Of a stretch of DNA of 55,959 bases, positions 47,900 to 55,959 are shown in pieces. The position numbers were made by a program, and so were the translations under genes. Under the pieces are notes generated by a model. The model was given only the letters and a program-made list of their open reading frames with translations. It did no database searches and was not told the DNA's origin. Every line of letters starts with the position of its first letter. Position 1 is the stretch's first letter. Source of the DNA: Chthonomonadaceae bacterium (GTDB lineage Bacteria > Armatimonadota > Chthonomonadetes > Chthonomonadales > Chthonomonadaceae); NCBI GenBank assembly GCA_025352825.1, contig JANXSG010000037.1, positions 1-55,959 on the forward strand. The letters run 5' to 3'.

Positions 47900-48115
47900 A
47901 TGTTTATGGCTGCATCTACCATGACTGATCGGTTGTATACTATTCTGCTTCGCAAAAAAATATCTGGTGGTAATATAGATGACGGAGGCAAGAACACGAA
48001 ACAGATTTTTATATTTGCAGCACCAAATGACGCGGGTAGGACAACTTTTACACGAGAGTTTCTACCGTCATCTTCCCTCCAACTCTCCCGACCTAATTCG
48101 AAATTTTTTATCTAG
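47900..48115 (+). pseudogene. Possible zeta-toxin-like P-loop remnant
   Basis: The 71-codon frame contains KQIFIFAAPNDAGRTTFTRE followed by FLPSS. This resembles the N-terminal Walker A block of zeta toxins (I-I-A-G-P-N-G-A-G-K-T-T-F-A-R-E-F-L-P) with Gly, Gly and the key Lys replaced by Ala, Asp and Arg. The downstream sequence no longer fits and stops after 12 codons. It ends just before the groES promoter. Confidence 0.45.
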
Positions 48116-50410: not shown

Positions 50411-50413
50411 CTG

Positions 50414-50451
50414 CCCCCACTCCCGAAGCTTCGGGAGTGGGGGTATTTTTT
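50414..50451 (+). terminator. Strong intrinsic terminator of groESL
   Basis: A perfect 15-bp stem (CCCCCACTCCCGAAG at 50414-50428, complement at 50429-50443) followed by TATTTTTT. Confidence 0.88.
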
Positions 50452-50804: not shown

Positions 50805-52646
50805 TTGAGAGAACAATATATAACTGATAATCCATTTCGCTTAGTTGGGGCTGGCTCAGCACTTACACAGCAACAACTACGCCGAAAGGCCGATACTACA
50901 TCTCGTTCTGCACTAGTTGGTTTGAATACTACGCCGCCTTTGGAGGCAGAATTCGGGTCTAAAGATATTGAAAGACTCGTTGCTTTAGTACGATCCCTCG
51001 CAACCGCGCCAAAACGCCGCACTGCTTATCGCATCATGTGGCCGCTTAGCGATAATGCCATTCCATATATTTATGATGAAAATTCATCTACAATTTTACT
51101 CGCACCAGAGGAAGCCATTCAGCTGACATTCTTATCTAGTTGGTATAGATTTCTTCGAGACAAGACCCCTTCAGGATCTACGATAGCTCTAAAAGCCTGG
51201 ATCGAACTTTACAATGAAATTGCTCTGGACGAACGATTGAAAATGCTGATTATGGAGGACGATAATCTTAATGAAGACGATGCCAATCAGCAACTTATAG
51301 AAGCTAAGTATGAGATTGTACAACATCTATTACAAAGAACAGCATCTGTAGCTGCTCAGGAGTGGGAAGCTGGGAATCTGGATTCTGCAATAGGTATAAT
51401 CAAGGCATTATTAAATTCAAAGTTTGATGAAACTATGCAGGAAGAGGCACTCGAACCTTTAATCGGAATTGGTCACAACCTTGCTGTAATAATTGAGCAG
51501 CTTACTGCAGATTTGCCGTCTTACATACTAGGTGCATCAACTGACGCACCGCCCGAACTAATTCACTTAGAAAGGCTTTCAAAAGTTTTATTCAAACGAC
51601 ATCCTATAGCGGGAGGCTGGGATCATATTATAAATCAATGGCACTCAACTTTAGGATGGGCTATGCGTAAAGCGGCTCTCGAATTGAATAAACTGGATGA
51701 CAATAAAGGAGCTCTTACTTTAGCAGATAAGGCACTTAAAGTTGTCCGAGATGCAAAGGTGAAGGAATATCTATTAAAAGACAGGATAACATATAAACAG
51801 AACCTTGCAAATATTGAACGTGATAAGCCCTACGCTGAGATTGAGCCAATTCTTAATACCCCAAGTATGTATACGATTAACGGGATAGGTACCACATTAT
51901 ATGGTGCTAAACCATTTCCGTCAGATCAACGGCTCCAATACTCGATACTGTATTTCGTGTTTTTGTATATTCCGATTTTCCCTTTGAACCGCTATGTTGT
52001 TGAAGCTGTTGGTAATAGACAGTGGAAATTTTATGGTGCTGTCAATTGGACTCTAGAAATGAAAGTTCATCTCGGGATTTCAAGCGTCCTAATTTTATTG
52101 TGCATATTTCTAATGAGACCAACTGAGTATACTGAACCATCATATTCAGCCGACAAAGGTTTATCTAATTCTGCTCCAATTACGATTCCAGTAAATAAGG
52201 GAAGTGTCATAGATAGCGCTTCGCAATCATCTATTGAGCCGAATAAACCTTCTCCATATATGACTGGTTTGGAGATTCCTGTACCTGAAAAGAGTGAAGA
52301 TAGTATACTACTACACCGTAAACAGCATAGACAACATTTAGAGAAAGTATTGAAGGTTTTGAAGTCTTCGATTCAATCAATAAAGGCAGATATTGATACG
52401 GATGACCACGCTATCGACAATGAAAGGTTTGCACTCGAATCTCTTAAAACCACAATCGAAAGTAAAAGACCAGATGATCAAATCCAACAGGAAATAGACG
52501 ATTACAATGCTCTCGTCGAATCCTATGAGGCACAACGTAGAGATTTTAACGCTCACATAGAGCAACATAACTCGAAGTTAGAGGTTTCTCGTGAGGCAGT
52601 GCGGCGTCATAACTCAATCGTCGACGAACTTAACAAGGATAGATAG
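50805..52646 (+). CDS. Membrane-anchored J-domain-like protein of an Hsp70 module
   Basis: This 613-residue protein starts at TTG 50805. Residues 9-80 (NPFRLVGAGSALTQQQLRRK ... SLATAPKRRTAYRIMWPLS) resemble the J-like N-terminal domains of uncharacterised Hsp70-linked proteins (N-P-F-R-x-L-G then R-R-x-x-x-x-L-x-W), but the HPD tripeptide is absent. A helical, TPR-like region covers about 120-345. Next comes GIGTTLYGAKP (360-370) and hydrophobic segments at about 378-396 (YSILYFVFLYIPIFPLNRY) and 421-438. A long charged coiled coil covers about 500-613. It ends two bases before the GrpE-like gene, and the order J-like, GrpE-like, Hsp70-like suggests one complex at the membrane. The J-like call is from pattern memory. 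Confidence 0.6.
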   Translation: MREQYITDNPFRLVGAGSALTQQQLRRKADTTSRSALVGLNTTPPLEAEFGSKDIERLVALVRSLATAPKRRTAYRIMWPLSDNAIPYIYDENSSTILLAPEEAIQLTFLSSWYRFLRDKTPSGSTIALKAWIELYNEIALDERLKMLIMEDDNLNEDDANQQLIEAKYEIVQHLLQRTASVAAQEWEAGNLDSAIGIIKALLNSKFDETMQEEALEPLIGIGHNLAVIIEQLTADLPSYILGASTDAPPELIHLERLSKVLFKRHPIAGGWDHIINQWHSTLGWAMRKAALELNKLDDNKGALTLADKALKVVRDAKVKEYLLKDRITYKQNLANIERDKPYAEIEPILNTPSMYTINGIGTTLYGAKPFPSDQRLQYSILYFVFLYIPIFPLNRYVVEAVGNRQWKFYGAVNWTLEMKVHLGISSVLILLCIFLMRPTEYTEPSYSADKGLSNSAPITIPVNKGSVIDSASQSSIEPNKPSPYMTGLEIPVPEKSEDSILLHRKQHRQHLEKVLKVLKSSIQSIKADIDTDDHAIDNERFALESLKTTIESKRPDDQIQQEIDDYNALVESYEAQRRDFNAHIEQHNSKLEVSREAVRRHNSIVDELNKDR

Positions 52647-52648
52647 CC

Positions 52649-53044
52649 GTGGAAAGTAATAATCAAGATGTTTCGCAGAATATGAACGAAAGCATACAAT
52701 CGCATAAACCACCAATTTTTGAAAACGACGATTCTATGAATGTTCCAGCGCATAAGATTGTCTCATTGGTTATTGACCTGTGGAAAATAACTGAACGCGC
52801 GAAATGTGAACCAGTTTCTGAGAGAGTATTAGCGGCGTGTGAGCGAGCACAAGAACGAATTAAAAAAATTGGATTTGTGATTGACGAGATGTTAGGGCGC
52901 CCATATGAAACAAACATGCGTGCGCGAGTAGTGGGGACTGATGGGGGTGTAGAACCATTTACCATATCGGAGTGTTTGAGCCCTGCAATCTATTATCAAG
53001 GTGTATTAATCTGTGAGGCTGAGGTTATAACGAAGGGAATATAG
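52649..53044 (+). CDS. GrpE-like small protein (putative nucleotide exchange factor)
   Basis: The 131-residue product from GTG 52649 has an acidic disordered start, a helical stretch (VSLVIDLWKITERAKCEPVS ... RVLAACERAQERIKKIG) and a small beta part (MLGRPYETNMRARVVGTDGG, then ISECLSPAIYYQGVLICEAE). A helix followed by a compact beta domain, with the sequence order of a GrpE C-terminal domain (G-x-x-x-D, then V-x-V, then a final A-x-V), is suggestive of GrpE but far from canonical. It sits two bases after the J-like gene and seven before the Hsp70-like gene. It may instead be an unrelated Hsp70 cofactor. Confidence 0.5.
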   Translation: MESNNQDVSQNMNESIQSHKPPIFENDDSMNVPAHKIVSLVIDLWKITERAKCEPVSERVLAACERAQERIKKIGFVIDEMLGRPYETNMRARVVGTDGGVEPFTISECLSPAIYYQGVLICEAEVITKGI

Positions 53045-53051
53045 GTAAATC

Positions 53052-55454
53052 ATGTCAGGTACTGTTGAATATGGGATTGACCTTGGAACTACAAATAGTG
53101 CTATAGCACGCATGACCGTAAAAGGCGCGGAAGTCATCCCTGTGCGCCGTCAGAACTATGTTTCTTCAGTGGTTGCTTTAGACAAACGTGGTGATCTAAA
53201 GATCGGCTCGGATGCGCTCAATCCCCACCTACAAAGCGCTAGGTGGTTTAAGCGACTAATGGGGACAACGAGTACAATCACGCTTGCAGATAATCAGAAG
53301 TGGACGCCTGAGCGCCTTTCTGCAGAAATACTTAAAGCACTTAAAGCAGCCGTGAAGCTCAAGACAAATGAAGATATTGAAGATGTGGTAATCACAGTTC
53401 CAGCCATGTTCACACAACCGCAATGTGTAGCAACGAACGAGGCCGCACATTTGGCGGGTTTGAATGCTGTTACACTCCTCCAAGAGCCCATAGCTGCAGC
53501 GACGGCGTATCTTTCAGAAAATCCTGTTGATGGTTATCATCTCGTGTACGATCTCGGCGGAGGTACTTTTGATGTATCGCTAATCCGCCTGCATGCGGGA
53601 GAAATGAACGTCGTCGAACATGGTGGCGATAACTATCTTGGTGGCGCGGATTTTGACCGAGCCATTTTTGATTGGACTCTACATCAGATCGATCGTAAAG
53701 GCGGTGATACTGAACTATTTAGGGAAGGATCAGGAAGACATCAGCTTCTAACCTCTTGCGAGGATGCGCGCATCTCTCTAAGCGACGCAGACTCTGCAAT
53801 TATCTATCTGGACGAATTTGATCTACCAATGGCAAAACTTGAATTGACTCGAGAACGACTTGAGGACCTCATAGAGAATTACGTTTCACGAACGATCGAG
53901 ATAGCTCGTGACCGGTTGGCTGCCGTCCCTAATGGAGCACAAGGAGTACGTGATATTCTTCTTGTGGGAGGACCAACACAAATGCCTTATATTAGGCGAA
54001 GACTTGGAATGGAATTGGGTATCCCGCTAAACTTTGATCAGGATCCAATGACCGTTGTTGCAAAGGGTGCAGCCTTTCATGCGGGCACAATTCTGAAACG
54101 TGATCATGCAATAGCTGCAATCGCTAAGGTAGGAGAAGCCCAGCTGGACCTGTACTACGATCCTGTTTCACCAGAACCATATACCGCCGTAGCTGGAAAA
54201 ATAATCCAACCGGCCAACTTTCGCGGTGAGATACGTATCGCCTCAGTTCGTGGCGACTGGGAAACTGGATGGACTACACTAATAAACAGCGCGTTCAGTG
54301 CCGAGGTTTCTCTAGGTCAACAACTACTTTCAGAGTTCAATATTGAATTACGGGATTTAAGTGGCAAAATTTTTCCTTGTACACCATCCTCGTTCGCTAT
54401 CCGCGGTGGAGTTCGTGCTGCGCAAGCTGTCACGCCATACAACTACGGGGTAGTTCTGGAGGGAGGGACAAAAGTTGGCATCATCGTCCCCAGGGGACAG
54501 ACACTTCCATCAAGCGGCTTTCAAGAATTTCGTCTAACGAAGACATTAGTTGCAGGTTCTCCTGATGCAGTGAAAATTTACTTCATCGAGGGTCTCAGTA
54601 TCAATGCCACTGAAAACACTCAAGTTGGACATTTCGAAATCAAAGGCACCGACATACGGCGCACCCTAAAGGAGAATGAACGCATAGAGATCAGAATCAG
54701 AATGGATGAAGGTAGGCGGCTGAAAGCTACAGTTCACATACCACTTCTAGATGTAGATCACATAATAGAGTTACATTCAGTTTTAGATGCGCCGGACTAT
54801 ACTGACCTGGAAACTTCCCTCAATGAAGCGCGAATTGCAATCACTGACATTGAAGACCATGTCGATTCCGAAGAGCAAGAATGTGTAATGCGAGCTGTCA
54901 GGCAGATAGAGCAAATCGAAGCTACATTAGAAAGAGCTGAAAAGGGTGAAGCGGGTGAGGGAGAGAGAATTTTAAAGCAGCTCTCAGACACAAAGGCGAG
55001 CATTAGGCCGCTCCGCGATAAATATAGCCTTCGAGCAAGACACTCTTCAATTATAGTACTTATCGGTGAAGCGGAGGATTTATGCCGGCAGTTTAATGAT
55101 CAAATGGGGCTCGCAAAGCTTCAGGACATGCGTGCCGATGCGGATAAATCGCTTCGTCTTGAGCAGGAGAAGACGCTTGATGCAGTCTATGAGAGAGTTC
55201 GGGATGTATTCTGGGAACACTACGGCAAGACTCGTGAATGTTGGGAGTATCAAGTAAACAGGATGAAAGAACGGGCTCATCTGGCAACTGATAGTCTAAC
55301 CTATTATGAAATGGTACGTCGTGCTGAAAAGGCTCTTGCAGAGGAAGACTATGGAGAAGTCAGCATTCAAAGCTTGCGTTCAGCAGAACTACTACCTGAG
55401 CAGGAACGACTCCGAAATCGATTTCACGATGCAGCACTTCGGTCGGGACATTAG
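53052..55454 (+). CDS. Hsp70-family (DnaK-like) ATPase with non-canonical C-terminal region
   Basis: This 800-residue protein has a complete Hsp70 nucleotide-binding domain: phosphate 1 GIDLGTTNSA (8-17), connect 1 VVITVPAMFTQPQCVATNEA (112-131) then LLQEPIAAATAY, phosphate 2 VYDLGGGTFDVSLI (165-178), and adenosine DILLVGGPTQMPYIRRRL (301-318). The linker DVLLLDVTPLSLG of DnaK is missing. Residues about 355-450 form an unfamiliar segment (LDLYYDPVSPEPY, GDWETGWTTL). A beta region follows that resembles a divergent substrate-binding domain (NYGVVLEGGTKVGIIVPRGQ, then FEIKGTDIRR), and then a long helical lid and coiled coil (about 590-790). It is clearly a paralogue of the housekeeping DnaK, with its own neighbouring cofactors. 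Confidence 0.9.
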   Translation: MSGTVEYGIDLGTTNSAIARMTVKGAEVIPVRRQNYVSSVVALDKRGDLKIGSDALNPHLQSARWFKRLMGTTSTITLADNQKWTPERLSAEILKALKAAVKLKTNEDIEDVVITVPAMFTQPQCVATNEAAHLAGLNAVTLLQEPIAAATAYLSENPVDGYHLVYDLGGGTFDVSLIRLHAGEMNVVEHGGDNYLGGADFDRAIFDWTLHQIDRKGGDTELFREGSGRHQLLTSCEDARISLSDADSAIIYLDEFDLPMAKLELTRERLEDLIENYVSRTIEIARDRLAAVPNGAQGVRDILLVGGPTQMPYIRRRLGMELGIPLNFDQDPMTVVAKGAAFHAGTILKRDHAIAAIAKVGEAQLDLYYDPVSPEPYTAVAGKIIQPANFRGEIRIASVRGDWETGWTTLINSAFSAEVSLGQQLLSEFNIELRDLSGKIFPCTPSSFAIRGGVRAAQAVTPYNYGVVLEGGTKVGIIVPRGQTLPSSGFQEFRLTKTLVAGSPDAVKIYFIEGLSINATENTQVGHFEIKGTDIRRTLKENERIEIRIRMDEGRRLKATVHIPLLDVDHIIELHSVLDAPDYTDLETSLNEARIAITDIEDHVDSEEQECVMRAVRQIEQIEATLERAEKGEAGEGERILKQLSDTKASIRPLRDKYSLRARHSSIIVLIGEAEDLCRQFNDQMGLAKLQDMRADADKSLRLEQEKTLDAVYERVRDVFWEHYGKTRECWEYQVNRMKERAHLATDSLTYYEMVRRAEKALAEEDYGEVSIQSLRSAELLPEQERLRNRFHDAALRSGH

Positions 55455-55512
55455 ATACTGTGAAACGAGCAGAGAAATTCACACATGCCATTCCTTCCGA
55501 GAAGGTCCTTAG

Positions 55513-55959
55513 ATGCAGACTAATCAGGTGCAGCAAACTGCTTCGAACAAATTTAGCTTGTCCCTTCTGCTCTACATAGCCCTGCCACTGCTGAGCTGGC
55601 GGGTCCCCGCCGTACGCCCTTTTGGCGCATTAATGGCTGCATGGATAGTTGTAACGCTGGTTCACTTGAGTGGATTTGTTCTTGCCAGCCTGGTATTTAG
55701 TCAAAAGATCGAGGAGTTCAGTCTCTTCTTCGGCAAGTCGATTTTATCTGTTTCATGGCGAGGATGCACATTTTACATTCGGTCAATCCCTATGGGCGGC
55801 TCAGTAATGATTGAAGGAATGGAATACGATGACGACGAAACTTCTGTTTCGACGCCCGTTCACGGCTTCCGGGCGATGCCGACCAGTAAGCGGCTGTTGA
55901 CATTACTTGCAGGGCCGATAACCTGTTTTCTCTTGGCTATTGCCTGCGGAGGCGTAGTT
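55513..55959 (+). CDS. M50 / site-2-protease (RseP)-like protein lacking the HExGH motif, 5' part only
   Basis: From ATG 55513 (GAAGG nine bases upstream) 149 codons stay open to the window edge. Residues 44-75 (WIVVTLVHLSGFVLASLVF and then KIEEFSLFFG) align with the first helix of RseP-type proteases, V-H-E-x-G-H-x-x-x-A-R followed by V-x-E-F-S-I-G-F-G. However, the zinc motif is HLSGF at 51-55, with Glu and the second His replaced. SWRGCTFYIRSIPMGGSVMI (81-100) and SKRLLTLLAGPITCFLLAIA (125-144) match the later family blocks W-x-G-T-x-Y-x-x-x-x-I-P-x-G-G-Y-V and R-x-x-x-x-x-A-G-P. The fold is therefore kept and the catalytic centre lost. It follows the Hsp70-like gene by 58 bases and may belong to the same unit. 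Confidence 0.75.
   Translation, partial: MQTNQVQQTASNKFSLSLLLYIALPLLSWRVPAVRPFGALMAAWIVVTLVHLSGFVLASLVFSQKIEEFSLFFGKSILSVSWRGCTFYIRSIPMGGSVMIEGMEYDDDETSVSTPVHGFRAMPTSKRLLTLLAGPITCFLLAIACGGVV

Follow-up and report, generated by a model that had tools for sequence, protein, structure and literature searches.

A site-2 protease homologue with a lost zinc-binding motif, and a distant orthologue sharing the loss, in the Armatimonadota

The locus and the complete gene

The window, i.e. the whole stretch of DNA analysed here, is an entire contig (G000:C275, 55,959 bp) of the draft genome of a Chthonomonadaceae bacterium. Towards its right-hand end groES-groEL is followed by a hairpin, by genes for a 613-aa protein, a 131-aa protein and an 800-aa Hsp70 and, after 58 bp, by an open reading frame that is cut off by the contig edge (Table 1). 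The remainder of this gene was found on another contig, C81 (locus L004), whose minus strand shares exactly 141 bp with the end of C275 (L004 1881-1741). This is an assembly k-mer overlap, and its exactness over 141 bp agrees with what de Bruijn assembly is expected to leave at a branch. The joined gene encodes a complete protein of 260 aa, and the join is supported because the frame stays open, a single Pfam M50 match spans the junction, and the orthologue described below is colinear across it. The frame is open over all 260 codons, which none of 5000 nucleotide shuffles reproduced.

Immediately 3' of the gene, a near-palindromic repeat (CCGCGAATTACGCTAATTGCGCGAATAG ... CGCGGAATTAGCGTAATTCGCGG) was recognized by eye around the stop codon (L004 about 1300-1430), and rpsO and pnp come after it on C81. 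The third-position GC content of the gene is 0.53, compared with 0.32-0.39 in its three upstream neighbours, 0.41 in the RseP gene of the same genome and 0.54 in groEL; the high value may hint at a separate acquisition.

Table 1. Features of the locus and of the candidate pseudoprotease gene (residue numbers are those of E. coli RseP, except I89-M103, which are positions of the window protein)
Feature	Position	Strand	Remarks
Terminator-like hairpin, strong	50412..50445	+	Between groES-groEL and the Hsp70 unit
613-aa protein of the Hsp70 unit	50805..52646	+	NPFR motif at start; predicted to cross the membrane twice
131-aa protein of the Hsp70 unit	52649..53044	+	Putative, GrpE-like by look
800-aa Hsp70 protein	53052..55454	+	Upstream neighbour of the candidate pseudoprotease; conserved partnership not seen
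GAAGG, ribosome-binding-like	55501..55505	+	7 nt ahead of the ATG; from sequence
Candidate S2P pseudoprotease gene, 5' part (149 codons)	55513..55959	+	ORF with ATG start at 55513, open to the contig edge; Pfam M50
HLSGF replacing HExxH	55663..55677	+	His22 present, but Leu at Glu23 and Phe at His26; from alignment
Equivalent of the membrane-reentrant beta-loop, I89-M103, IRSIPMGGSVMIEGM	55777..55821	+	Frame kept, position 69 is Ser; from alignment
Second core transmembrane helix, with AGP	55903..55959	+	Short linker next, where RseP has PDZ domains
Candidate pseudoprotease gene, remaining 111 codons and stop	contig C81 (L004) 1740 down to 1405	minus	

An M50 protein that has lost catalytic and metal-binding residues

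The half of the protein encoded in the window matches, taken alone, Peptidase_M50 (E = 3.8e-14), the NCBIfam RseP model (E = 9.5e-11) and solved RseP structures. In the full 260-aa protein a single Peptidase_M50 domain (PF02163) extends over residues 42-229 (E = 1.5e-18; positions 4-202 of the 221 of the profile), with a score of 67.4 bits against a curated cut-off of 27.2, whereas the score for the RseP equivalog model TIGR00054, 51.4 bits, lies below the curated cut-off of 147.55. With RseP and other group-I site-2 proteases (S2Ps; PF02163, TIGR00054) the protein shares the M50 core and the transmembrane layout. By sequence it also retains the reentrant beta-loop with Gly67, Gly68 and Val70, and in the alignment the scaffold residues Asn394, Pro397 and Pro399 together with Gly403 and Gly404 of the LxGG. 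Unlike RseP, which has about 350-450 aa, it possesses neither HExxH, nor the Asp of LDG, nor a PDZ domain (no Pfam match in the 260 aa, and only a short linker joining core helices two and three in the alignment), and it has Lys at the position of Asn389.

For comparison we aligned 34 RsePs, 33 from Armatimonadota and one from E. coli, whose residue numbers are used here. HExxH and the Asp of LDG are intact in all 34, including the RseP of the same genome. In the window protein the first motif is HLSGF, as the first-pass annotation had noted in describing a homologue of S2P/RseP whose zinc motif is inactivated, and that description holds. The second metal motif, which could be read only on the complete gene, is NLLPLPILNGG, with LNGG in place of LDGG, so that the ligand Asp402 has become Asn. 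The annotation was thus right about the loss but not about its extent: three positions and not two have been lost, namely the catalytic Glu23 and the metal ligands His26 and Asp402, and of the four key residues only His22 remains. No HExxH, as a second copy or otherwise, occurs anywhere along the 260 aa. A sequencing error was considered and rejected, as the motif (CACTTGAGTGGATTT) differs by several bases from that of the genome's own RseP (CATGAATGGGGTCAT) and the second motif is altered too. Judging from these residues, the protein would be unable to bind zinc or to cut.

The genome also encodes the intact RseP paralogue that the first pass had envisaged: it adjoins dxr and contains HEWGH and LDGG. 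Two further M50 proteins of this genome have intact motifs. The genome that harbors the orthologue (G108) likewise has an intact RseP, and the other M50 proteins read there have an intact HExxH; no other M50 protein with a broken HExxH was found in either genome. One of the M50 proteins in G108 (L091, on G108:C298), of about 460 aa, combines a short membrane domain, in which HEFGH is intact, with a long region that looks repeat-like, and no obvious LDG motif was seen in it.

A distant orthologue with the same losses

Among 291 genomes of the phylum, the best relative of the window protein is encoded on contig G108:C372 (JACMJB010000259.1), which belongs to another family of Armatimonadota. It was the single hit (E = 1.8e-27 over residues 38-255) far above the ordinary RsePs, which in the same scan reached E = 4.7e-15 or weaker. 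The orthologue has 232 aa, a single M50 domain (E = 4.3e-16) and no PDZ domain, and is 30% identical to the window protein, a distance at which silent sites are saturated between the two. Its motifs, HLLGT and NLLPLPALNGG, show the same kind of loss. Neither an orthologue with an intact HExGH nor a later second HExxH, the two findings that by the first-pass annotation would have spoken against the loss, was found. The two members also have in common several states that RsePs show rarely or never. These are Leu in place of Glu23, Asn in place of Asp402, Lys at 389 (Lys199 of the window protein; Ser or Asn in RsePs), Ser at 69 (Ser97 of the window protein; Tyr or Phe in RsePs), Leu at 398, residues of the linker and, in the numbering of the window protein, Pro169, Gln174 and others. 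His51, Lys199 and Asn212 are present in both. With the six motif columns removed, the two proteins form a sister group at 99/99, although this grouping could partly be a long-branch artefact, the two known members both being long branches.

Because a distant orthologue shares both the losses and the new residues, we infer that the loss is old and has been kept, and is neither an error nor a recent decay. The same loss in a distant relative of the phylum makes it appear that the dead form is useful to the bacterium. The distribution is sporadic, with two of 397 genomes in two families of one phylum; no third member was found among these 397 genomes (about 100 beyond the 291 of the phylum), in which the next matches are ordinary RsePs. 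A scan of the contig collection gave no match with the window protein and only the G108 contig with the two-member alignment, and plasmid searches yielded no full-length relative. The AlphaFold model of the orthologue (mean pLDDT 40) is too poor to test the fold or the geometry of the site; the order of elements in this low-confidence model (a helix, three strands, helices) fits an S2P but is no evidence for one.

Possible function, genomic neighbours and significance

The reading of the protein as a pseudoprotease is well supported by the sequences. The function that we favor, with a probability of roughly 0.6, is that it binds a membrane partner without cleaving it. Without Glu23, His26 and Asp402 zinc would not be held and water would not be activated, hence no cutting would take place, while the retained membrane fold and reentrant beta-loop could hold a membrane segment of the partner uncleaved. 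In E. coli RseP the reentrant beta-loop binds the substrate, proposedly as an extended strand, residues 69 and 71 contact the substrate, and N389L abolishes co-immunoprecipitation, i.e. stable substrate binding (PMC4597795). Since both members carry changes at positions 69 and 389, what is bound is probably not the normal set of RseP substrates but a dedicated client or a different membrane protein, which the pseudoprotease would sequester or stabilise or for which it would serve as an adaptor. The protein may thus be a substrate-binding scaffold, as suggested at first pass, but the changes at these two positions speak against a simple binding of RseP's own substrates. A more specific version is tentative: the two proteins may represent a PDZ-less bacterial family of S2P pseudoproteases whose cleft stays folded as a peptide-binding groove because a buried Lys, at the position of Asn389 and together with His51 and Asn212, replaces the charge of the zinc. 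That a Lys of the former active-site helix might substitute for the metal charge is speculation.

A regulatory role toward the intact RseP of the same cell, by pairing or by competition for substrates, seems unlikely. Both genomes with a pseudoprotease carry an intact RseP, and the fold and the frame of the beta-loop are retained; however, RseP is nearly universal, so that its co-occurrence is little informative, and the substrate-binding positions 69 and 389 are altered.

Slightly less probable still is that the protein is a functional part of the Hsp70 unit, presenting membrane clients to Hsp70 or anchoring it, the tie that the first-pass annotation had raised. The gene does lie on the Hsp70 strand with no terminator-like site of the + strand in the intervening gap, and the first protein of the unit is membrane-linked. 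However, the unit recurs in the same gene order in G136 and G140, which are of one genus, and in G237, which is of another family. In a fifth genome, G117, a related Hsp70 begins a contig; no S2P gene stands beside the unit in the former three or beside the Hsp70 in the last. The loci of the unit or the Hsp70 are 50805-55454 of the window, L108:3448-8135, L109:3425-8198, L110:3580-8303 and L111:167-2536, and the Hsp70s of these relatives are 41-64% identical over their full length. In these other genomes the pseudoprotease profile found nothing beyond ordinary RseP-level matches. Conversely, the orthologue is flanked by genes that by eye resemble a beta-hydroxylase and a P-loop kinase and has no Hsp70 neighbour, and G108 gave no match to the 613-aa or 131-aa protein. 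The Hsp70 unit is thus conserved on its own, with the pseudoprotease not a conserved part of it. The two may be cotranscribed in this genome, but their neighbourhood is not conserved and is probably incidental.

No family name was found for the three-gene unit, which is present in four genomes from three families of Armatimonadota and whose Hsp70, of about 800 aa, has a long C-terminal region. Its 131-aa protein had no match in a Pfam search; against GrpE (PF01025), hhalign aligns the expected region but weakly (probability 1.6%, E = 0.032), and the AlphaFold model is poor (mean pLDDT 51). As a J-domain candidate the 613-aa protein shows the NPFR motif but no profile match, and PADLOC returned nothing convincing. 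Ahead of groES, a short ORF at 47900-48115 of the window (FIFAAPNDAGRTTFTREFLPSSS) resembles the start of a zeta-toxin-like kinase with its P-loop broken; G136 has what looks like an intact kinase of this type next to its Hsp70 unit (L108:8400-8912).

It is very improbable that the gene is a decaying duplicate without function, as its sporadic occurrence and missing catalytic residues might suggest, since the frame of 260 codons is complete in spite of deep divergence, the start codon and ribosome-binding-like site are in place, and the orthologue has lost the same residues and gained the same new ones. The least probable alternative is that the protein is still enzymatic through a different metal site or chemistry that uses, for example, the shared His51, Lys199 and Asn212, given that none of Glu23, His26 and Asp402 is left and that window-protein positions 52 and 55 carry Leu and either Phe or Thr, respectively.

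As a probable pseudoprotease, the window protein has a close parallel in EGY3 of plant chloroplasts, a protein of the thylakoid that belongs to a different branch of the S2Ps. EGY3 too is an S2P homologue without HExxH whose loss is conserved among orthologues, as that of the catalytic motif is in our two members (HLSGF and LNGG, HLLGT and LNGG), but the window protein differs in being bacterial, RseP-like and only 260 aa long. EGY3 is reported to help to stabilise other chloroplast proteins (PMC10978774). The iRhoms and other rhomboid pseudoproteases follow the same principle, in that the fold of an intramembrane protease persists although catalysis is gone (PMC3149277), but they belong to an unrelated family of serine proteases and are eukaryotic. 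HExxH and LDG have been described as present in all S2Ps (PMC10202637), and plant EGY3 has been named as the one pseudoenzyme among homologues of the S2P family (PMC9355673). In the open-licence literature we found no S2P pseudoprotease named besides EGY3. Protease databases do include M50 homologues that lack the motif and are unstudied, so that any claim to a first bacterial case concerns described proteins only.

If the reading is true, no S2P pseudoprotease would have been described before from organisms other than plants. The protein also carries a warning for annotation, since the closest automatic label for it would be RseP protease. Pseudoproteases show which roles a protease fold can have besides cutting, and a small, PDZ-less bacterial member, with three positions lost in two families, would offer a minimal natural model for binding by the membrane core of the S2Ps.
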